DNA from: Nitrospiraceae bacterium
GTDB taxonomy: Bacteria; Nitrospirota; Nitrospiria; Nitrospirales; UBA2166
Assembly: GCA_002726235.1 (NCBI GenBank)
Contig: PBSN01000004.1
Location: 101,279 to 140,569, forward strand
Length of the DNA: 39,291 nucleotides
Direction of reading: 5' to 3'
The stretch's first letter is position 1, and every line of letters starts with the position of its first letter. A program made the translations under genes and the position numbers. Under the pieces are notes generated by a model. It was not told the DNA's origin and ran no database searches. It saw only the letters and a list, made by a program, of their open reading frames with translations. This document shows, one piece after another, positions 1,088 through 12,460 of the stretch.

Positions 1088-1318
1088 TTACAGCTCGAGG
1101 CAGGTGGTGGTTTTTGTAATTCCTTCGACGCAACGGATTCGTGCAAGAGTTTCATCTCGTAACTCTTGAAGAGTTTCTACTTCGACTCTGACGATTAAGT
1201 CGTGGTCGCCACAGACCGTATAGACCTTCTGTACCCCAGTGATACGGCTCAAGGTTTGCTGACAGCTTCTGGTATGGTCGCCAACGACGTCAACGAGAAT
1301 AAATGCACCTAATGCCAT
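1088..1318 (-). CDS. stand-alone Lrp/AsnC ligand-binding (RAM) domain protein
   Basis: This 76-residue protein consists only of the alpha/beta ligand-binding and oligomerisation domain found at the C-terminus of Lrp/AsnC regulators. It starts MALGAFILVDV and contains the typical GVQKVYTVCGDHDLIVRVEV segment in the middle. There is no helix-turn-helix, so it cannot bind DNA by itself. Members of this group are thought to sense amino acids or to pair with full-length Lrp proteins, but its partner is unknown here. A GGGAGG ribosome site (bases 1325-1330, complement) lies 6 bases before the ATG. It is convergent with argB and divergent from the midA-nuo operon, so the roughly 140-base gap 1319-1462 probably carries both promoters. 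Confidence 0.85.
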   Translation of the reverse strand: MALGAFILVDVVGDHTRSCQQTLSRITGVQKVYTVCGDHDLIVRVEVETLQELRDETLARIRCVEGITKTTTCLEL

Positions 1319-1462: not shown

Positions 1463-2692
1463 ATGAGTTCTAAGAGCCATCAGACAACCGAACGGGCCAA
1501 ACTTGGATCACCAGCCATCGACGGCGAATTTTGCAATCTCCCGTTGGTTAAAAAGATGAGCGATGAGATTATGCGCAAGGGCCCGATTGACTTTGCGAAG
1601 TTCATGGCGATGGCCCTATACGATTCAGCATATGGCTATTATGAGTCGGGTGGCACTCTTGGATGGAAAGGTGATTTTTATACCAGTGAAGATCTCCATC
1701 CCATTTACGGCGAGATGCTTGGACGGCAGCTGATTGAGGCATCGGAGCTAATTGCCCATAATGGGCCTGTCACAATTGTAGAAATGGGGCCAGGAAGGGG
1801 AACGCTGTGTCGGGACATTCTCACGTTTCTTGGGCGCGAGATCCCCCAAATTCGGTCGAGACTTCGCTATGTGCTGATTGAGCGAAGCGCCAAGATGCTT
1901 GAGCACCAGCGCAATCTGCTGCGGCCTTTCTTGTCGGCGGGTTGGCCAGTATCGTGGTGTAGTGGACTCGCTACCTTCCTTCCGCAAGGAATTGAGGGGA
2001 TTATTTTCTCGAATGAACTTATCGACGCGTTTCCGGTCCACCGCATCATTATTCGCAACGGCCTGCTCAGAGAGTGTTTTGTGTCCTACGAGCATGACCG
2101 ATTTGTGGAGTGCGAAGGTGACCCATCCGTTGCGGTTGCGGATTATGTTCGACGTTTCATTTATGAGCAGGGGATTACGCTTGGGGAGGGAATGCGCACC
2201 GAGGTTAACTTGGACGCTGTTGATTGGATGCAATCAGTTGCTGGGGTGTTGAAGAAGGGTATTGTGATGACGGTTGACTATGGTTATCCTGCACATGAAT
2301 TGTACAGTTCTCAACGGTCCCATGGCACCTTGTTGTGCTATGTCCGGCATCGCATTTCAGACAATCCCTATACTGGTGTGGGGCATCAGGATATGACTGC
2401 TCATGTCAACTTTACTGCGTTGGCGACCGTGGGGCAGGACAGAGGGTTAGATGTGACGGGTTTTACCAATCAGCAAAGTTTTCTTCTTGGATTAGGCGTT
2501 GCAGAGAAAACCACTGAATCCAATGAGGAATTCATTGCTCGACTGATTCATCCTGAAGGCTTGGGGAGGACACATAAGGTGCTTATTCAGCATACTGGAA
2601 TGCCCCTTCCAGCCCTGTCGGGACTGAAATATCGGCCATTTTTCGATTCGTCTTTATTTGGTGAAGGTGGGGTGCATCATGTTGGTGGGTGA
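1463..2692 (+). CDS. MidA/NDUFAF7-family class I SAM-dependent methyltransferase
   Basis: A 409-residue member of the COG1565/DUF185 family of S-adenosylmethionine-dependent methyltransferases. The SAM-binding motif I reads EMGPGRGTL (residues about 107-115), and the upstream block FMAMALYDSAYGYY followed by GDFYTSE is a family hallmark. The mitochondrial homologue NDUFAF7 symmetrically dimethylates an arginine of NDUFS2 (the NuoD homologue) and is needed for complex I assembly; Dictyostelium MidA is its orthologue. The last 14 bases overlap the preferred start of nuoA, so this is the first gene of the nuo operon. That linkage makes NuoD the most likely substrate, which is inference. The N-terminus carries about 30 residues before the conserved core. 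ATG 1463 has only a weak ribosome site, and the ATG at 1556 is an alternative. Confidence 0.9.
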   Translation: MSSKSHQTTERAKLGSPAIDGEFCNLPLVKKMSDEIMRKGPIDFAKFMAMALYDSAYGYYESGGTLGWKGDFYTSEDLHPIYGEMLGRQLIEASELIAHNGPVTIVEMGPGRGTLCRDILTFLGREIPQIRSRLRYVLIERSAKMLEHQRNLLRPFLSAGWPVSWCSGLATFLPQGIEGIIFSNELIDAFPVHRIIIRNGLLRECFVSYEHDRFVECEGDPSVAVADYVRRFIYEQGITLGEGMRTEVNLDAVDWMQSVAGVLKKGIVMTVDYGYPAHELYSSQRSHGTLLCYVRHRISDNPYTGVGHQDMTAHVNFTALATVGQDRGLDVTGFTNQQSFLLGLGVAEKTTESNEEFIARLIHPEGLGRTHKVLIQHTGMPLPALSGLKYRPFFDSSLFGEGGVHHVGG

Positions 2693-3065
2693 AAGCATTC
2701 CGGTCAATTACGTACCGATTGCAATTTTTGCCATCATCGCGTTTGTCTTTGGGCTCGTCACGTTGACCGTTGGTCAACTCGTTCGCCCTTCTCACCCATA
2801 CCACGCAAAATTAAGCGTGTATGAAAGCGGTGCGACTGTTTTTTCTGATGCACGGGTGAAAATTCCGATGCGCTACTACGTGATCGCAATGTTGTTTGTG
2901 ATTTTTGATATCGAAGTGATCTTCTTGTACCCGTGGGCAGTCGTGTATGATACGCTCGGTGTCCTTGGTCTCGTGGAAATGGCTGTTTTTATTATGATTT
3001 TGCTCGTTGGATATGCGTACGCTTGGAAGAAGGGGGTTTTGGATTGGGACGAACTAGACGGCTGA
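2679..3065 (+). CDS. nuoA: NADH-quinone oxidoreductase subunit A
   Basis: NuoA/ND3 is a small three-helix membrane subunit at the junction between the hydrophilic arm and the membrane arm of complex I. The first helix (around [13 protein letters not shown]), the loop with YESG and [13 protein letters not shown], and the [16 protein letters not shown] helix are all present, giving the usual three segments in 128 residues. The loop has Ser where many homologues have Cys (YECG), a common bacterial variant. The ATG at 2679 is chosen because AGGTGGGG lies just upstream; it overlaps the methyltransferase stop by 14 bases, implying coupled translation. A TTG or GTG start at 2658 or 2661 is possible but would add only a few atypical residues. 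Confidence 0.95.
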
Positions 3066-3078
3066 GGAACTCATCATA

Positions 3079-3558
3079 ATGGGATACCTGAATCGACAAC
3101 TTGACGCCAATATCATCACCACAAACATTGATGCGGTCGTTAACTGGGCGAGAAAGTCGTCACTCTGGCCTATGAGCTTTGGGCTTGCGTGTTGTGCAAT
3201 CGAGATGATGGCAGCGGTGTCCTCACGTTACGATATGGATCGGTTTGGTGCGGGTGTGTTTCGTGCGTCCCCTCGGCAGGCAGATCTCATGATCGTTGCT
3301 GGTACCGTTTGTCGGAAGATGGCCCCAGTTATTCGGCGAATTTACGATCAAATGGCTGAGCCACGATATGTCATCTCTATGGGTTCGTGTGCGACGTCAG
3401 GAAACCACTATAACAGTTACAGTGTTGTCCAGGGGGTGGATCAATTCCTTCCGGTCGATGTCTATGTCCCGGGGTGCCCACCGCGGCCGGAGGCCCTGTT
3501 GGATGGCCTTCTCAAGTTACAACAGAAATTGCAGAAAGAACGCGTGCTGGTGAAATAA
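3079..3558 (+). CDS. nuoB: NADH-quinone oxidoreductase subunit B
   Basis: NuoB/PSST carries cluster N2, the last iron-sulfur centre before quinone. The 159-residue protein has the four expected ligands: the tandem CC at 38-39, Cys104 in ISMGSC and Cys133 in [10 protein letters not shown]. The quinone-site segment around [10 protein letters not shown] is also conserved. An extra cysteine, Cys78 (GTVCRKM), stands where Thr is usual (GTVT); it is not expected to be a ligand. A GAGGA ribosome site (3064-3068), overlapping the nuoA stop, lies 10 bases before the ATG. The gene sits between nuoA (13-base gap) and the nuoCD fusion (2-base gap). Confidence 0.98.
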
Positions 3559-3560
3559 AC

Positions 3561-5327
3561 ATGCATCCCGTTTGTGAAGCCGTCCAGAAGGTCTTTCCTG
3601 AAGTTGTGCTGGGCGTGAGTGTGGACTACCAGACACCTACGATTGAGGTTCATCGAGATGGCCTTATTTCCGTGGCGACATTTCTCAAGGAAAATAGTGA
3701 TTTGGACTTTAACCACATCACCGATATTTGTTCCGTCGATTATCCGGAAGACGATGAGCGGTTCGAGGTCGTATATTTTCTGCATTCGTTGCCACATCGA
3801 CAACGGGTAGTTATCAAGACTAAGTTGTTGGAAGCCGACCCTTCTGTCGAATCGGTTACTTCGATATGGCGGGGAGCAAACTTTTTGGAACGGGAAGTTT
3901 ATGACCTCATGGGCATTTGCTTTAAGAACCATCCGGGCCTTCGGCGGATCTTGCTTCCCGAGGATTATGATGAAGGGCACCCACTTAGAAAAGATTTTCC
4001 GACGGAAGGAAAAGGATGGCGTTGTTCATTTGACTTCTTTCCCGACCTTAACGAGCAACCGAGGTCCGAGATTGATCATGATGCGGCGGAACACGAACGG
4101 CAAGTGTTTGTGCGGTCAAATGGGGAAAGTGGTCATCGTGGGGTATCTGGTGGTCTGCAGCGCGAAGAAGAGTTTTTGCTCAATATGGGGCCGCAGCATC
4201 CGGCGACTCATGGCGTTCTGCGAGTTGTGCTTACGCTTGAGGGAGAGCGAATCGCCAAAGCCACCGTTGATGCGGGGTATCTTCACCGTGGCGTGGAGAA
4301 GTTAGCCGAAGGCCTCACCTACGGCCAGATCATACCGCATACCGACCGATTGGATTACGTCTGTGCTATGGCGAACAATTATGCCTATGTTCGATCGGTT
4401 GAGATGCTTCTTGGATTGGCGGTGCCTGATCGCTCAGAATACATTAGGACGATTGTTGCGGAAATGCAGCGGATTATTGGACATCTTTTTTGGCTCGGAA
4501 CTCAGGCTCTTGATATTGGCGCGATGACGGTCTTTTTCTGGACTTTCCGTGAGCGCGAAGAATTGTTGGATATGTTCGAGGTGCTTTGTGGCGCGCGGCT
4601 GACGCTGAACTATTTTCGCGTTGGAGGAGTTGATAGAGACTTCAAACCTGACCTTGTGGCACGATTGTCACGCTTTCTCGATGCGTTCCCAAGCCATATC
4701 GATGAATATGACATCCTGTTGGCAAATAATCGAATTTGGCTTGCTCGAACCAAAGACGTTGCCGTGATTTCCGCGGAAGACGCGATCAATTTTGGCTTAA
4801 CCGGTCCGGTGATTCGAGGATCAGGTGTTGCATATGATGTGCGAAAATTCAGTCCGTACGGTGCTTATGGGGATGTTGAGTGGGATGTTCCGGTCGGAAA
4901 GTGCGGTGATACCTATGATCGCTATTGGGTTCGGATGGAGGAGATGAGGCAGTGTTGTCGAATCATCCGACAGTGCCTCGATCGACTTCCGAATGGTCCA
5001 ATTATGGCTGATGCGCCCGACATTGTTCCGCCACCTAAGGAAAACGTCATGCGGGATATGCAAAGCCATATTCACCATTTTGTTTTGTTCACTCACGGGT
5101 TTCATCCTCCGGCCGGTGCTGTCTACTGTCCCACCGAGTCGCCAAAAGGTGAACTCGGATTCTATATTGTCAGTGATGGGAGTGCGCGTCCATACCGAAT
5201 GAAAATTCGATCACCTTCGTTTATCCACTTGGGAGCGCTTGATCACATGTCGAGAGGGTACTTAGTATCAGACCTTGTTACTGTGTTTGGAACATATGAC
5301 GTGGTGATGGGAGAGTGTGATCGCTAG
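3561..5327 (+). CDS. nuoCD: NADH-quinone oxidoreductase fused subunits C and D
   Basis: A single 588-residue chain joins NuoC (30 kDa subunit, residues about 1-165) to NuoD (49 kDa subunit, about 203-588) through a charged linker. The NuoC part ends in EREVYDLMGI followed by GHPLRKDFP. NuoD begins at LLNMGPQHPATHG and ends with the standard VFGTYDVVMGECDR. NuoD forms the quinone pocket with NuoB. Arg243, in GYLHRG (codon 4287-4289), aligns with human NDUFS2 Arg118 (mature Arg85), the residue dimethylated by NDUFAF7, whose homologue heads this operon. ATG 3561 lies 2 bases after nuoB and gives a normal NuoC N-terminus; the frame stays open upstream to 3474 inside nuoB, but that extension does not look like NuoC. 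The same C-D fusion is known from E. coli. Confidence 0.97.
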   Translation: MHPVCEAVQKVFPEVVLGVSVDYQTPTIEVHRDGLISVATFLKENSDLDFNHITDICSVDYPEDDERFEVVYFLHSLPHRQRVVIKTKLLEADPSVESVTSIWRGANFLEREVYDLMGICFKNHPGLRRILLPEDYDEGHPLRKDFPTEGKGWRCSFDFFPDLNEQPRSEIDHDAAEHERQVFVRSNGESGHRGVSGGLQREEEFLLNMGPQHPATHGVLRVVLTLEGERIAKATVDAGYLHRGVEKLAEGLTYGQIIPHTDRLDYVCAMANNYAYVRSVEMLLGLAVPDRSEYIRTIVAEMQRIIGHLFWLGTQALDIGAMTVFFWTFREREELLDMFEVLCGARLTLNYFRVGGVDRDFKPDLVARLSRFLDAFPSHIDEYDILLANNRIWLARTKDVAVISAEDAINFGLTGPVIRGSGVAYDVRKFSPYGAYGDVEWDVPVGKCGDTYDRYWVRMEEMRQCCRIIRQCLDRLPNGPIMADAPDIVPPPKENVMRDMQSHIHHFVLFTHGFHPPAGAVYCPTESPKGELGFYIVSDGSARPYRMKIRSPSFIHLGALDHMSRGYLVSDLVTVFGTYDVVMGECDR

Positions 5328-5339
5328 ACGGATGTTGGT

Positions 5340-7175
5340 ATGTTCTCCGCTGAAGCAAAAAAACAGATTTCCACCATTCTGAAACGTTATCCGATCAAAG
5401 CGTCTGCCCTTCTTCCACTACTGAATCTTGCTCAAGAGGAAGAGGGTTCGGTGTCTGAGGACAGTATGCGTGAGATTGCCAAGTTGCTTGATCTCACGCC
5501 TCCCAAGGTGTACGAGGTTGCCACCTTTTACACAATGTTGAATCTTAAACCGATTGGCCGGTTCCATCTTCAGGTGTGCAAATCCTTGATGTGTGCTCTG
5601 GGAGGATCGGAGACATTGCTCCAGTGGATTTATAAGGAATTAGGGATTAAACCCGGTGAAACTACGCAAGACGGCATGTTTACCCTGAGCACGGTTGAGT
5701 GTCTCGCTTCGTGTGGAACGGCACCGATGATGCAGGTGAATAATGATTACTTCGAACGCCTGACACACGAAAAGGTTCGTCAGATTTTTGAGGATCTTCG
5801 GACCGCCGGGAAATGCTTGCTTGCAACTGGACCCTTTCGGTGGCCAGAACCAGTTGGATTAATGACGGCATTTGAGAGAGTCCTGCTGAAGAATATGGAT
5901 ATGCCAGGCTATTCTGGATCATTGAAGGACTATGAAGGAGCTGGTGGCTATAAGGCTATTCAGGCTGTCCTTGGGAAGATGAAGCCAGGCGATCTCATTG
6001 ATATCGTCAAACGATCTGGTTTGCGTGGGCGCGGAGGAGCAGGGTTTCCAACAGGCGTCAAATGGGGGTTTATTCCGAAAGACTCTCCGGGATCGAAATA
6101 TTTGTGTTGTAACGCTGATGAGAGTGAGCCTGGAACGTTTAAAGACCGCCAGCTTATAGAACGTGATCCTCACCAAATGCTTGAGGGCGTTATTCTTGGG
6201 TGTTATGCGATAGGGGCAAAGGTCAGCTACATCTATATTCGTGGTGAGTTTATTCTTGGGGCAAAGATTCTGGAGAAGGCGCTTGCCGAGGCCTACAAAG
6301 CAGGATATTTGGGTATGAATATCTTGGGTTCCGGCTTCGATCTTGATGTGTATGTCCATCGAGGGGCGGGAGCCTACATCTGTGGCGAGGAAACTGCCTT
6401 GCTGGAATCTCTTGAAGGTAAGCGAGGAAAACCACGAACCAAACCGCCTTTTCCGGCAATCTCTGGACTGTATGGAAAGCCGACGGTCATTAATAATGTC
6501 GAGACCCTGTCAAACATCCCACATATTGTAAATCGAGGGCCGGAGTGGTTTATGTCCATCGGTTCACCGCCGAAGAGTCCAGGGACAAGGATATTTTCTC
6601 TCAGTGGGCATATAGCACGGCCTGGAAATTATGAAGTTCCCATGGGGATTACCATACGGGAGATGCTTGAAGACTGTGGGGGAGGAATGCGAGATGGGAA
6701 GAAACTCAAAGCCATTATCCCTGGAGGGGCCTCCGCTGCTTTCCTGACCGAGAAACACCTCGATGCCAAACTAGATTTCGAGGGGATTGCCAACGCAGAA
6801 TCAATGCTGGGATCAGGCGCGATCACCTTTATGAATGAAGATACATGTATGGTGTGGGCGGCAGAGCGACTCCTAGAGTTTTTTCACCACGAATCATGTG
6901 GCAAGTGTACTCCATGTCGTGAAGGGAGCATGTGGTTGCTTCAAATCCTTCATCGAATAGAGTCAGGGCAGGGAAGAAATGAAGATCTTGATCTTCTGTC
7001 AAGGTTATGCGGCAATATTACAGGACAAACCGTTTGTGCCTTTGGCGATGCTGAAATTGCGCCGATTATCAGTACGCTCAAACATTTTCGACATGAATAT
7101 GAGGCGCATATTCGAGATGGACATTGTCCGTATCGCAGTAAACACGTAGCATTGGTCGGTATCGGAACCTCGTAG
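5340..7175 (+). CDS. nuoEF: NADH-quinone oxidoreductase fused subunits E and F
   Basis: One 611-residue chain combines NuoE (24 kDa, residues about 1-155) with NuoF (51 kDa, about 170-600), which together form the NADH-oxidising tip of complex I. The NuoE part has the thioredoxin-like [2Fe-2S] ligands Cys80, Cys85, Cys121 and Cys125. The NuoF part has the FMN/NADH segment RGRGGAGFPTG (229-239), GAGAYICGEETAL (343-355), and the N3 [4Fe-4S] ligands Cys520, Cys523 and Cys526 (ESCGKCTPC) plus Cys566. The frame is continuous and both halves are complete, so this is a true fusion. It implies fixed 1:1 stoichiometry of the tip subunits. The ribosome site before ATG 5340 is weak; the gene lies 12 bases after nuoCD. 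Confidence 0.96.
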   Translation: MFSAEAKKQISTILKRYPIKASALLPLLNLAQEEEGSVSEDSMREIAKLLDLTPPKVYEVATFYTMLNLKPIGRFHLQVCKSLMCALGGSETLLQWIYKELGIKPGETTQDGMFTLSTVECLASCGTAPMMQVNNDYFERLTHEKVRQIFEDLRTAGKCLLATGPFRWPEPVGLMTAFERVLLKNMDMPGYSGSLKDYEGAGGYKAIQAVLGKMKPGDLIDIVKRSGLRGRGGAGFPTGVKWGFIPKDSPGSKYLCCNADESEPGTFKDRQLIERDPHQMLEGVILGCYAIGAKVSYIYIRGEFILGAKILEKALAEAYKAGYLGMNILGSGFDLDVYVHRGAGAYICGEETALLESLEGKRGKPRTKPPFPAISGLYGKPTVINNVETLSNIPHIVNRGPEWFMSIGSPPKSPGTRIFSLSGHIARPGNYEVPMGITIREMLEDCGGGMRDGKKLKAIIPGGASAAFLTEKHLDAKLDFEGIANAESMLGSGAITFMNEDTCMVWAAERLLEFFHHESCGKCTPCREGSMWLLQILHRIESGQGRNEDLDLLSRLCGNITGQTVCAFGDAEIAPIISTLKHFRHEYEAHIRDGHCPYRSKHVALVGIGTS

Positions 7176-7190
7176 GGACTCTAACCCAAT

Positions 7191-9854
7191 ATGGAACACG
7201 TAAAGCTCACAATTGATAATCGCGAAGTCGAAGTTGAGCAGGGTACGCTTGTCATTGAAGCTGCCCGCGAGCTTGGTATCGATATTCCCCATTTCTGCTA
7301 TCACCCTAAGCTTGGGTATGATGCGAATTGCCGGATGTGTCATGTCGAGATCGAGAAAAGTCCAAAACTTCAGGCTTCTTGCAGTGTTCCTGTCACCGAT
7401 GGCATGGTTGTTCATACTGATACCGCGCGTGTGAACGAATCACACAAATCTGTGCTTGAATTTATTCTCGCGAATCATCCGCTTGACTGCCCAGTCTGTG
7501 ATCAGGGAGGACGTTGTGATCTACAAGATTACTCCCATCGATACACTCCGACGGTCAGCCGTTTTGAAGACGTGAAGCGGGTATTTGATAAAGAATATTT
7601 TGGTCCGGTTATTGAAAAACAGATGAACCGTTGTGTGTCTTGTATGCGCTGTGTGCGGTATTGCGACAATGTCATTGATGCTAAAGCGTTGGCGTCCACT
7701 GGACGTGGGTCGTCGAGTGAGATCAAACACTTCGGATCCCATCAGTTGGATTGTGAATTTTGTGGAGGATGTGTGCAGATCTGTCCCGTTGGGGCGTTTA
7801 CCAATCGCGTGTCCATGTTCGATTATCGGCCATGGATGTTGAAACGTACGGACACGACGTGTGGCTATTGCGGCGATGGTTGTCAACTGACGTTTCAGAC
7901 GCGAGATCAGCAATCTGCAGCCAACACCATTATTGAAGTTCAGTCATTCCACGGTACTGGCCGCAATAATGGTGACCTATGTGCTCGGGGTTATTTTGGA
8001 TTTGGTTTTGCCAATCACGAAGCGCGCCTCACCCATCCATTGATTAAACGTGACGGCACTCATGTCCAGGTTACTTGGGAAGAGGCATTGGAGTACGCGG
8101 CAGAGAGGCTTGTAGCAATCAAAGAACAACATGGTTCTGATGCGGTCGCTGGTTTGGCATCAGCACGGCTTACGAACGAAGATCTGTATGTGTTCCAAAA
8201 ATTCATGCGCATGTCAATTGGGACGAATCAGGTTGATTCTTCCGTTCGCTATGGCCACATTAATGCTGCGATGGCCATGGGGATAGTCCAGGGGACCACG
8301 CGCTGGACGGTCACCTATGAAGATATTGTTAAGGCTCATACGATTTTGCTGTTGGGAACAAAGATCACGGACACGAATCCCATCGTTGGGCTCAAAGTGA
8401 AGGAAGCCGTCAAGAAGGGTGGAGCTCAGTTGATTACCGTTGAGTCGACGGTGCCGGTTATTCAAACCATAAGCAATATTACAAATCTGGCTTCGCTTCA
8501 TCTGCAAGCCGATCCCATCGCCTATGGGGCTGTGGTCCAGGGGCTAGTCAATACCGTTCTTGATGATGGGTTGGTTAATGCAGAGATTCAAATCCGCTAT
8601 CCGCAGTACATCGAACGATTGAAGCAAGCTACCACGGCATTGTCTTTGCGCGATTGTGCACAGGTTTCAGGGGTATCTGCTGCTCAGATCAAAGTAGCAG
8701 CCAAGGTGTTTGCCGAATCCCCTAAATGTATTGTGCTTATGGGTCAGGGAGTGCTTCGCTCGCCGGGAGCGTTTGAGACCACTCTTAATGTCTTTGACCT
8801 TCTCCTTCTCACCGGGAAGCTTGACCAAGAAGGATCTGGTTTGGCCGTCCTGACCGAAGAAAATAATGAGCAGGGTGCACTTGAGATGGGGGTCGTTCCA
8901 GAGTATCTTCCTGGGCCTTCCGACCGGATGAGCGACACAGCAAAGCAAGTGATTCAAACACAGTGGGGTGTTGAACCAGCAACTGGCCTTGGGTTAAGGC
9001 TTCCAGAGATTATTGAAGCTGCTCGAGATGGCAGTGTCAAAGCAATGTATATCGTAGGCGAAAACCCAATTGAAAGCTTGCCGCCGTCGGTCAAGGTTCG
9101 AGATGCGCTCAATCATCTGGATCTTCTTATCTGCCACGAATTGTTTATGACTGAAACTGCAAAATGTGCGGATATCATATTCCCTGCGTGCAGTTATGCC
9201 GAAAAAGATGGAACTTTTACCAATTCCGAAGGTGTCGTTCAAAAAGTGTGCCGTGCTTTAGATCCGATCGGTGAGAGTCATCCGGATTGGGAAATACTCG
9301 TTCAGGTCTCGAATTTTATGAACGTTTCGATGGAATATGGGTCAGTAAAAGATGTTCAAGATGAAATCAGCAGGGTTCAATCTTCGGCGCGAAAGACTGC
9401 GAAGCTAGACCGGAAGGTTCTTGATCGGTATATCGAATGTGAAACCTCAAACCCTAGGGTCGATTCTCGATATGTGGTCGAAAAACCCAAGCCACGCGAT
9501 GGTCGACCACTAATTCTAACGGTTGGCCAAAGTCTTTTCCATTCCGGTAAAATGTCAACATTTGCCAGTGGGTTAAAGGCAATACAGACTGTAGGTGCTC
9601 TTATGATGCATCCTGATGATGGGGAGAAATATGGTGTGATGGATGGGAGTTTGGTGAAGATGGAGTCCGAGCATGGTGAAGCCGTCATTCCGGTTAAGTT
9701 TAATGAACGATACCCACAGGGGACGGTCTTTTTCCCTGAACATTTTAGTGGAGCTATTGGAGCGGTATTATCAATGACGATTGATTCCACAACAAACGCG
9801 CCGTATTTTGGTTCCGCTTATGTATCAATCGCACCATCTGTTTCCGGGGCATAA
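7191..9854 (+). CDS. nuoG: NADH-quinone oxidoreductase subunit G
   Basis: The 887-residue 75 kDa-type subunit carries the electron wire of the hydrophilic arm. In order it shows: a ferredoxin-like [2Fe-2S] domain (Cys36, 47, 50, 64); the His/Cys N5-type site (His96, Cys100, 103, 109); two four-Cys sets (148, 151, 154, 158 and 188, 191, 194, 198); then CGYCGDGC (Cys224, 227, 231) with Cys264. The last set looks like the off-path N7 cluster, present in only some bacteria. The rest is a molybdopterin oxidoreductase-type domain, with a C-terminal dinucleotide-binding-like domain from about residue 770. In NuoG this fold is normally structural and holds no molybdenum. It starts 15 bases after nuoEF and ends 3 bases before nuoH. 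Confidence 0.97.
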   Translation: MEHVKLTIDNREVEVEQGTLVIEAARELGIDIPHFCYHPKLGYDANCRMCHVEIEKSPKLQASCSVPVTDGMVVHTDTARVNESHKSVLEFILANHPLDCPVCDQGGRCDLQDYSHRYTPTVSRFEDVKRVFDKEYFGPVIEKQMNRCVSCMRCVRYCDNVIDAKALASTGRGSSSEIKHFGSHQLDCEFCGGCVQICPVGAFTNRVSMFDYRPWMLKRTDTTCGYCGDGCQLTFQTRDQQSAANTIIEVQSFHGTGRNNGDLCARGYFGFGFANHEARLTHPLIKRDGTHVQVTWEEALEYAAERLVAIKEQHGSDAVAGLASARLTNEDLYVFQKFMRMSIGTNQVDSSVRYGHINAAMAMGIVQGTTRWTVTYEDIVKAHTILLLGTKITDTNPIVGLKVKEAVKKGGAQLITVESTVPVIQTISNITNLASLHLQADPIAYGAVVQGLVNTVLDDGLVNAEIQIRYPQYIERLKQATTALSLRDCAQVSGVSAAQIKVAAKVFAESPKCIVLMGQGVLRSPGAFETTLNVFDLLLLTGKLDQEGSGLAVLTEENNEQGALEMGVVPEYLPGPSDRMSDTAKQVIQTQWGVEPATGLGLRLPEIIEAARDGSVKAMYIVGENPIESLPPSVKVRDALNHLDLLICHELFMTETAKCADIIFPACSYAEKDGTFTNSEGVVQKVCRALDPIGESHPDWEILVQVSNFMNVSMEYGSVKDVQDEISRVQSSARKTAKLDRKVLDRYIECETSNPRVDSRYVVEKPKPRDGRPLILTVGQSLFHSGKMSTFASGLKAIQTVGALMMHPDDGEKYGVMDGSLVKMESEHGEAVIPVKFNERYPQGTVFFPEHFSGAIGAVLSMTIDSTTNAPYFGSAYVSIAPSVSGA

Positions 9855-9857
9855 CCA

Positions 9858-10853
9858 ATGGATGTGATAGTCACGCTTGCCATTATTCTCTTGCAGGTTG
9901 CTCTTGTCATGGCCATCATTCTTCTGAATGTGGCCTATCTTACCTACGCAGAGCGAAAGATTCTTGGATTTATGCAGGATCGTCTCGGACCCATGGAGGT
10001 TGGTCCATACGGGTTGCTTCAGCCGATTGCAGACGGCATCAAACTGTTTTTTAAAGAAGACATTATTCCTGCTGGGGCGAACAAAGTTATTTTTACGCTT
10101 GCCCCAATTTTGGCTTTTGTTCCCGCAATGATTGGTTTCGCCGTGGTGCCGTTTGGGGCTGGAGAAAAACCATGGATCATCAGCGATATCAACGTTGGCA
10201 TTCTCTATGTTCTGGCAGTGACGTCGATTGGCGCCTATGGCATTATCCTTGGAGGATGGGCGTCCAATAGCAAATACTCCCTCCTCGGGGGCTTGCGTGC
10301 GGCAGCACAGGTTATTAGCTATGAGTTGAATATTGGACTCGCGATCGTAGGGGTGTTGTTGCTCTCAGGATCGTTAAGTCTGGTGGAAATCACTGAAGCT
10401 CAAGCGGGTGGATTCTGGCATTGGTACGTTTTCCCTCAGTTCGTTGCCTTTGTGATCTATAGCATTGCTGCGGTTGCCGAAACGAATCGCCTTCCCTTCG
10501 ATCTTCCCGAAGCGGAGAGTGAACTAGTTGCCGGGTTTTTCACTGAATACAGCGGGATGCGATTTTCATTTTTCTTTATGGCGGAATACGCCAACATGAT
10601 TCTTGTCTCCTGCATTGCCGCCATTCTGTTTCTCGGAGGATACAATGCGCCATTTCCATTTCTGGATTTCGTTCCGCCGGTCATATGGTTTACGCTAAAA
10701 GTCTACTTCTTCTTGTTTCTTTTCATCTGGATACGCGCAACGGTGCCTCGACTTCGGTACGATCAGTTAATGCGACTTGGGTGGAAGGTTATGTTGCCCA
10801 TCGCATTAGCGAATATTATGCTCACGGCAGTGATTGTGTACGTGGTGGAGTAG
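9858..10853 (+). CDS. nuoH: NADH-quinone oxidoreductase subunit H
   Basis: NuoH/ND1 is the membrane subunit that completes the quinone access channel and links the hydrophilic arm to the proton pumps. The 331 residues contain about eight hydrophobic helices. Family motifs are clear: YAERKILGFMQDRLGP, then LLQPIADGIKLFFKED near the N-terminus, AETNRLPFDLPEAESELV in the acidic loop, and RATVPRLRYDQLM near the C-terminus. Length and motif order are normal. Its TAG stop shares a base with the probable GTG start of nuoI. Confidence 0.98.
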   Translation: MDVIVTLAIILLQVALVMAIILLNVAYLTYAERKILGFMQDRLGPMEVGPYGLLQPIADGIKLFFKEDIIPAGANKVIFTLAPILAFVPAMIGFAVVPFGAGEKPWIISDINVGILYVLAVTSIGAYGIILGGWASNSKYSLLGGLRAAAQVISYELNIGLAIVGVLLLSGSLSLVEITEAQAGGFWHWYVFPQFVAFVIYSIAAVAETNRLPFDLPEAESELVAGFFTEYSGMRFSFFFMAEYANMILVSCIAAILFLGGYNAPFPFLDFVPPVIWFTLKVYFFLFLFIWIRATVPRLRYDQLMRLGWKVMLPIALANIMLTAVIVYVVE

Positions 10854-11383
10854 TGAGGGCGTTACTCAAGGCGGTGACATTCCCTGAAATTTTGATGGGA
10901 TTGAAGGAAACGTTGAAACATCTGTTCACACCCTCAGTGACTCTTCAGTACCCTCATGTAAAGAGAAGCCTTCCCGGCGGCTATCGCGGTATGTTATCGC
11001 TGCTTCGCTATAGTGACGGTGGCGAAAAGTGCGTCGGCTGCGATTTGTGTGAGGCTACCTGCCCTTCAAGGGTGATTACGGTGGTCAGTGCGGAGGTGCA
11101 GGGGGAACCTACTAAGCGCTATGCCAAAGAATACTATATGGACATGACGCGTTGCGTATTCTGTGGTCTGTGTGTTGAAGCTTGTCCCGTTGACGCCTTA
11201 GGCATGACTAAGGAATACGAATGGGCAGTGTATGATAAACGTTCACTTCGTCTCAACAAAGAGCAACTTCTTGCTATCGGTGATCGATCCTTTCCCGAAC
11301 GTGAACGGCCGGTGCAGGACCAATACCATAACGTAGCAACTTTTAACATTGGCCGACCTCAGCTTCCTCAGAAGCAATACTAA
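10853..11383 (+). CDS. nuoI: NADH-quinone oxidoreductase subunit I
   Basis: NuoI/TYKY carries clusters N6a and N6b, which pass electrons towards N2. Two ferredoxin motifs are visible, CVGCDLCEATCP and CVFCGLCVEACP. I choose the GTG at 10853, which overlaps the nuoH stop by one base (TAGTG). It yields an N-terminus RALLKAVTFPEILMGLKETL with the amphipathic helix expected before TLQYP, for 176 residues. ATG 10895 (162 residues) is an alternative. The frame is open to 10685 inside nuoH, but that part is a shadow of nuoH. This is the last nuo gene here: nuoJ would normally follow, but hemH does instead. Confidence 0.95.
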   Translation: MRALLKAVTFPEILMGLKETLKHLFTPSVTLQYPHVKRSLPGGYRGMLSLLRYSDGGEKCVGCDLCEATCPSRVITVVSAEVQGEPTKRYAKEYYMDMTRCVFCGLCVEACPVDALGMTKEYEWAVYDKRSLRLNKEQLLAIGDRSFPERERPVQDQYHNVATFNIGRPQLPQKQY

Positions 11384-11449: not shown

Positions 11450-12460
11450 ATGAGTGTTGATGCAGTCATTCTTGTGTCGTTTGGTGGTCCTGAAGGCATG
11501 GATGATGTGATGCCGTTTCTGGAGAATGTGTTGCGCGGAAAGAACGTTCCTGAAGACCGCAAATTGCAAGTTGCCGAGCACTATAAACAGTTTGGTGGGG
11601 TCAGTCCGATCAATTCGCAAAATCGTGCTCTGATTGACGCCATCAAGGATGAGTTGGAGATGTGCGATATACGATTGCCTATTTATTTTGGCAATCGAAA
11701 CTGGCATCCACTTCTTTCCGATGTGCTCAAGCAGATGAGAGATGACGGAATAAAACATGCGCTGGCCATTGTGACGTCCGCATACAGCTCGTATTCAGGT
11801 TGTAAGCAGTATCTCGACAATATTCAGCGTGCAGTTGATATGGTTGATGGTACGGTGATCATTCAAAAGTTGCGACAATACTATAACCACCCGGGGTTTG
11901 TTGAAGCGAATATTGACCGGGTAAGGGATGCTATTGAAACACTTCCCAACCCCACCGACTCATTTGCCGTGGCGTTCACTGCACACAGCATTCCGATTGC
12001 GATGGCGAAAACCTGTCCATATGATGAACAGTTGCGCGAAGTTGCCGGCGTCATTGCCTGTCAACTGAAGATTGCTGATTGGAAACTGGTGTTTCAGAGT
12101 CGCAGTGGGCCACCCGATCAACCTTGGTTGGATCCCGATATCTTGGACCATATTCGGACGCTAAAGGCGAAAGGGTGTGGTCAGCTCGTTGTCGCTCCGA
12201 TCGGGTTTATCTCTGATCACTTAGAGGTGGTGTATGATCTTGATCAGCAGGCCAAGAAACTCTGCAGTGAACTTGGGATTGCAATGATACGTGCTGGAAC
12301 TGTGGGGTTGCATCCCGCTGTGGTGTCGATGTTTCGCGAGTTGATTGAAGAGCAGATCAGGCCGGGAATGGAGCGACGAGTCTATGGGAGTGGAACCGCA
12401 TGGCCGGACGTATGTCCGCCAGACTGTTGTAGCTACACTTTTGGCCGCTCTTCAGATTAG
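11450..12460 (+). CDS. hemH: ferrochelatase (proto- or coproporphyrin type)
   Basis: Ferrochelatase inserts ferrous iron into a porphyrin, the metal-insertion step of heme synthesis. The 336-residue protein begins DAVILVSFGGPEG, has the porphyrin-loop segment YFGNRNWHP, the catalytic His179 in FTAHSIP, and Glu259 in GFISDHLEVVYD. The segment TSAYSSYSGCKQY and the terminal CPPDCC (Cys322, 326, 327) resemble actinobacterial enzymes, some of which bind a [2Fe-2S] cluster and use coproporphyrin III. Which substrate this one uses cannot be decided from sequence alone. A GAGGAA site (11435-11440) lies 9 bases before the ATG. The 66-base gap after nuoI shows no clear terminator, so it may be co-transcribed with nuo. 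Confidence 0.94.
   Translation: MSVDAVILVSFGGPEGMDDVMPFLENVLRGKNVPEDRKLQVAEHYKQFGGVSPINSQNRALIDAIKDELEMCDIRLPIYFGNRNWHPLLSDVLKQMRDDGIKHALAIVTSAYSSYSGCKQYLDNIQRAVDMVDGTVIIQKLRQYYNHPGFVEANIDRVRDAIETLPNPTDSFAVAFTAHSIPIAMAKTCPYDEQLREVAGVIACQLKIADWKLVFQSRSGPPDQPWLDPDILDHIRTLKAKGCGQLVVAPIGFISDHLEVVYDLDQQAKKLCSELGIAMIRAGTVGLHPAVVSMFRELIEEQIRPGMERRVYGSGTAWPDVCPPDCCSYTFGRSSD

Follow-up and report, generated by a model that had tools for sequence, protein, structure and literature searches.

The stretch analysed here, hereafter the window, comprises 39,291 nucleotides of contig PBSN01000004.1 (assembly GCA_002726235.1) of a Nitrospiraceae bacterium that resembles nitrite oxidisers. Its plus strand carries, in this order, a methyltransferase gene, the complex I genes nuoA, nuoB, nuoCD, nuoEF, nuoG, nuoH and nuoI, and hemH. 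We suggest that the first gene, at 1463-2692, encodes a bacterial protein-arginine methyltransferase of the NDUFAF7/MidA family. We consider it quite probable that this enzyme modifies the NuoD arginine at position 243 of NuoCD, beside the iron-sulphur cluster N2, before or during assembly of the Q module. The features on which this reading depends are the following (SAM, S-adenosylmethionine; ORF, open reading frame).

1463..2692, plus strand: SAM-dependent methyltransferase of PF02636/COG1565 (NDUFAF7/MidA family), 409 amino acids, first gene of the nuo operon (PF02636, 204.8 bits; model fold against MidA 5ztz, Z 40)
2679..2692, plus strand: 14-base overlap of the methyltransferase stop and the nuoA start (sequence)
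2679..3065, plus strand: nuoA (PF00507, 125 bits)
3079..3558, plus strand: nuoB (PF01058)
3304..3306, plus strand: codon of NuoB Thr76, partner in the NuoD-Arg/NuoB-Thr residue switch (sequence check)
3561..5327, plus strand: nuoCD fusion, 588 amino acids (TIGR01962 NuoD 544.8 bits, PF00329, PF00346)
4287..4289, plus strand: codon of Arg243 in NuoCD, the residue predicted to be methylated, corresponding to bovine Arg85, Yarrowia Arg121 and Paracoccus Arg65 (sequence, alignment)
4347..4349, plus strand: codon of NuoCD Arg263, a second N2-shell arginine and not the methylation site (sequence, alignment); we take it to be the equivalent of Yarrowia Arg141
1088..1318, minus strand: divergent small ORF, 76 amino acids, upstream boundary of the operon (ORF list)

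The methyltransferase gene and its product

The preliminary description of this locus had the methyltransferase as the first gene of the nuo operon, ending 14 bases inside nuoA. The overlap is as described, with the TGA at 2690-2692 and the nuoA ATG at 2679, and the first position fits because the upstream neighbour at 1088-1318 is divergent. No promoter or terminator signals of note were found at the locus. The idea that the overlap couples translation stands only in part. The same 14-base overlap is present in the two closest relatives, behind a conserved purine-rich sequence resembling a ribosome-binding site, but it is confined to that lineage, and in the Nitrospira loci (L004, L005) about 75 bases separate the two genes.

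The ORF matches PF02636 (Methyltransf_28) over the full length of the profile (1-249 of 249; 204.8 bits, cut-off 23.3), and it is the only copy of this family in the source genome; no NCBIfam model matched it. A profile of 21 homologues retrieved the Burkholderia protein 4f3n (E 6.5e-83), R. palustris 1zkd (1e-61) and Dictyostelium MidA 5ztz (1e-52) from the PDB, and no other PDB sequence at E 0.001 or better. In the AlphaFold model (mean confidence score, pLDDT, 89.6), the top PDB matches are all COG1565/MidA proteins with Z of 37-46; the next fold, that of other methyltransferases, reaches Z 16.6 and below. The model superimposes on 5ztz with Z 40.0 over 363 residues (root-mean-square deviation 2.6), and includes the family-specific parts beyond the bare seven-strand methyltransferase. 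The SAM motif EMGPGRG and the family motifs NELIDAFPVH and QDMTAHVNF are intact; they align to MidA, and many of their columns are invariant or nearly so in the 21 homologues. The closest solved structure, at about 30% identity and Z 44-46, is that of a COG1565 protein from Burkholderia thailandensis (4f3n, 4g67), which has no assigned function. Membership of the NDUFAF7/MidA family is thus supported by sequence and by the modelled fold, and this does not imply strict orthology with NDUFAF7. On a quick tree with few outside references and long branches, the alphaproteobacterial 1zkd and MidA 5ztz pair (99), and the window protein groups with other Nitrospirota.

NDUFAF7/MidA of human and Dictyostelium (5ztz, 5zu0) share with the window system PF02636, the full-length fold, the SAM and family motifs and the same NuoD target motif. 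The window protein differs from them in its low identity (about 22% to MidA), its place on the tree apart from the alphaproteobacterial/mitochondrial branch, its encoding in a nuo operon and an activity that is predicted.

Gene order across two phyla

We surveyed the Nitrospirota and the Chloroflexota. In Nitrospirales, PF02636 is directly upstream of nuoA in 36 of 37 genomes, the source genome included (in three of these cases the call is based on a matching distance from nuoD). The adjacency is also found in two of three genomes from other orders of class Nitrospiria, the third contig ending about 0.3 kb past the gene, and in family f7 the gene lies about 5 kb upstream of nuo in three of four genomes. 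No PF02636-nuo linkage was seen in the rest of the surveyed Nitrospirota. The preliminary description had proposed that gene order preserves the link between enzyme and substrate, and had regarded an adjacency limited to this genome as a sign to the contrary. The adjacency extends well beyond this genome and recurs in Chloroflexota; the proposal itself applies to class Nitrospiria and to part of the Chloroflexota, and fails for most of the phylum Nitrospirota. A literature search that left out most subscription journals found no earlier report of PF02636-nuo operon linkage.

PF02636 lies less than 8 kb from nuo genes in 12 of the 59 Chloroflexota genomes that have it, and the arrangements are several. 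The methyltransferase is the first gene of a nuoA-B-C-D operon in G206 and G179 and, as far as the contigs reach, in G215 and G295; it is divergent in G241 and G190 and downstream in G223. A binomial estimate of how often such proximity would arise by chance assumes independent genomes, an assumption that fails here. The linked methyltransferases fall into separate groups on the tree, which suggests that the linkage arose several times. This recurrence in a second phylum bears on the view that the methyltransferase is a general one whose substrate is unrelated, and that its gene sits in a respiratory operon by happenstance and is merely co-regulated. Such a view would suit the absence of the gene from the vicinity of nuo in most Nitrospirota outside class Nitrospiria and the Sinorhizobium match that adjoins lgt. 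However, the varied arrangements, and a linkage that outlasts deletion of the adjacent subunit genes (genome G105, below), make it improbable.

Two genomes that appeared to have the enzyme and to lack complex I (G067, G116) contain a truncated NuoD, which in G067 is at a contig edge. In another genome (G126, L291:7606-15798), the methyltransferase is tail-to-tail with a hydrogenase-4/formate-hydrogenlyase-like cluster of NuoB, D, C, M, H and L homologues, with about 26 bases between the matches.

The predicted target arginine and its partner in NuoB

The codon at 4287-4289 is CGT, and Arg243 stands in GYLHRGVEK, which aligns with the mammalian GLLHRGTEK. In the bovine protein, Arg-85 is symmetrically dimethylated and lies within KCDPHIGLLHRGTEK (PMC3750175). 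Thus the YLHRG assignment and the mapping to the methylated mammalian residue, both given in the preliminary description, agree with the published position. Its suggestion that the conserved arginine hints at methylation does not survive: the arginine is also present where the enzyme is lacking, and in E. coli. Both NuoD copies of the source genome carry the HRG-motif arginine, which does not discriminate, as most NuoD have it. In Nitrospirota, every readable NuoD (about 105 copies) has arginine here, including those of 22 genomes without a PF02636 match; three f12 genomes with neither enzyme nor Arg-pattern match (G006, G016, G025) were excluded, since NuoD was not located in the stretches examined. 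E. coli NuoCD resembles that of the window in its CD fusion, its arginine and the NuoB threonine, but the E. coli control genome has NuoA and no PF02636, and Carroll et al. found its arginine unmodified (PMC3750175). The residue match is above chance, yet arginine is the family default at this site and is no evidence by itself. We therefore rejected conservation of the arginine as evidence for methylation. Hydrogenase-like NuoD homologues of family f16 (L305-L308) have lysine at this position (GYVHKGIEK).

The Chloroflexota are more informative than the Nitrospirota, because there the site varies between arginine and threonine. Calls were made by motif search, for which a reversed control pattern gave almost no matches. 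An Arg-type NuoD is present in 57 of the 59 genomes with PF02636. Among the 80 genomes without PF02636 that have an Arg or Thr match, 55 have threonine only and 25 are Arg-type (Fisher p 1e-16, kinship not corrected for). The rule is one-way: the enzyme implies arginine, but an Arg-type NuoD is often found where the enzyme is missing (25 genomes). All Thr-type NuoD copies form one clade. One of the two exceptions, G295, has the enzyme and no Arg match, on a contig that ends right after methyltransferase-nuoA. The other, G150, has PF02636 and only a Thr match; G163 has Arg and Thr matches and no PF02636. The two carry near-identical NuoD with an internal TAG (G150:C353, G163:C322) and look like complementary incomplete assemblies. 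Some Chloroflexota, for example G252, G176, G220 and G276, have a NuoD-like variant with HRNHEK replacing HRGxEK and no PF02636; G261 is an exception.

Where both subunits could be read (59 loci), NuoD arginine goes with NuoB threonine (45 loci) and NuoD threonine with NuoB arginine (14), without exception. An inter-subunit residue switch of this kind is known from Yarrowia and Thermus (PMC8042128), and the present loci extend it; the window is in the NuoD-Arg/NuoB-Thr state that accompanies the enzyme. These data also bear on whether the enzyme could be a complex I assembly methylase that acts on another residue or subunit, such as NuoB or NuoA, leaving Arg243 bare as in E. coli. The window subgroup is deeply diverged from MidA, Nitrospirota NuoD has the arginine regardless of the enzyme, and any subunit would be compatible with the operon position. 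We nevertheless regard a different target as unlikely. This is because PF02636 in Chloroflexota is nearly restricted to genomes with Arg-type NuoD, the family members tested so far modify the HRG arginine (PMC3829151), and NuoB has threonine wherever NuoD has arginine, so that there is no equivalent NuoB arginine in those genomes.

The main published alternative is the claim that Wolbachia MidA methylates DNA (PMC12455994), from which it could follow that the bacterial family acts on DNA and thereby affects gene expression. It draws on 166 N4-methylcytosine/N6-methyladenine (m4C/m6A) calls made when Wolbachia MidA was expressed in E. coli, a result that its authors call preliminary. However, the window protein has its fold and motifs in common with the MidA protein methyltransferase, and DNA methylation gives no reason for the enzyme to track a NuoD residue or nuo gene order. 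We consider it highly improbable for the window enzyme.

A natural deletion and the second complex I

The remaining genes of the operon in the window are as follows.

5340..7175, plus strand: nuoEF fusion (family matches)
7191..9854, plus strand: nuoG (family match)
9858..10853, plus strand: nuoH (family match)
10865..11383, plus strand: nuoI, part of ORF 10685-11383 (family match)

Directly after nuoI stands hemH (ferrochelatase, 11450-12460), and nuoJ to nuoN do not come next in the operon, unlike in Nitrospira.

The sole exception in Nitrospirales, the reduced Nitrospira-type genome G105 (2.0 Mb), shows a natural deletion. Related Nitrospira have the order secA-methyltransferase-nuoA-B-CD-EF-G-H-I-J, and G105 has secA-methyltransferase-nuoH-nuoI-nuoJ, with nuoA, B, CD, EF and G lost (L102:9000-13527). 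The one NuoD that it still has is encoded elsewhere in the genome and is Arg-type. The likely remaining target of the G105 enzyme is this second, 2M-type NuoD, as judged from one genome. The reduced operon also implies a hybrid complex I with 2M-type subunits. The 2M-type complex of N. moscoviensis has no NuoH of its own (PMC6606698). The source genome of the window has a second nuo cluster as well (L100, G000:C27:1-10068), which is 2M-like, with A, B, C, D, G, I, J, K and L and without E, F and H; a 550-residue ORF lies on the opposite strand between its nuoC and nuoD. Since the enzyme was kept with nuoH after its neighbouring NuoCD was lost in G105, we suggest, from this one genome, that the window enzyme probably serves the second, 2M-type complex too.

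Proposed mechanism and implications

We propose that the enzyme would bind NuoD before or during assembly of the Q module (NuoB, NuoCD) and dimethylate the HRG arginine, Arg243 of NuoCD. The modified residue would then pack beside N2 at the NuoB interface. The arginine is present in both complexes I of the genome, the canonical fused-CD form and the 2M type, and one enzyme may serve the two. Catalysis, symmetric dimethylation, timing and the effect on assembly are ascribed to the window enzyme by analogy with human, Dictyostelium and Paracoccus. In human cells, knockdown of NDUFAF7 reduces the arginine mark (PMC3829151, PMC9006661). Bacterial complex I methylation is not new, because Arg65 of Paracoccus Nqo4 is dimethylated (PMC3750175; PMC11522691). 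The Paracoccus denitrificans complex, like that of the window, has a bacterial NuoD with arginine at the same position, and dimethyl-Arg65 was seen in its Nqo4/NDUFS2 by mass spectrometry and cryo-electron microscopy; unlike the window organism, it is an alphaproteobacterium, and the cited papers name no responsible gene. In a review, bioinformatic and structural evidence is cited for alphaproteobacterial homologues methylating NDUFS2.

Several points weigh against our proposal. The window methyltransferase has low identity to MidA, the tree does not place it with the alphaproteobacterial/mitochondrial pair, and the activity of its subgroup is predicted. The arginine occurs also where the enzyme is absent. 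In Chloroflexota, G150 combines the enzyme with only a Thr match, in a NuoD with an internal stop, and the Thr-bearing genomes represent three to five independent changes, for which an underpowered sign test is not significant. G114 has the enzyme and no NuoD was found, possibly because of a fragmented assembly; G013 has the enzyme and no Arg-pattern match, its NuoD sequence being unread. Finally, the substrate assignment of human NDUFAF7 could itself use more biochemistry, according to a review (PMC11514484).

The established part of this work is the gene with its family, fold and motifs, an operon position shared across Nitrospiria and, for Chloroflexota, the recurrent linkage to Arg-type nuo genes and the near-absence of the family from genomes that lack an Arg-type NuoD. 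The arrangement is real, conserved and functionally sensible, and the proposed function is likely, the general idea being already known in one bacterium. More tentatively, and with slightly less than even confidence, we envisage three chemotypes of the N2 site. These would be a methylated NuoD arginine (with PF02636 and NuoB threonine), a bare arginine (no enzyme, as in E. coli), and NuoD threonine with NuoB arginine, for which the enzyme would be unneeded.

The N2-adjacent arginine mark is needed for assembly of human complex I, and bacterial reports have so far been limited to Paracoccus. With the comparative pattern described here, the role of this modification in bacteria can be tested directly. 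Methylated arginine, bare arginine and threonine are tractable natural contrasts for the effect of the mark on N2 and on assembly. In addition, operon linkage together with residue co-distribution would allow the methylation state of a bacterial complex I to be predicted from gene content.

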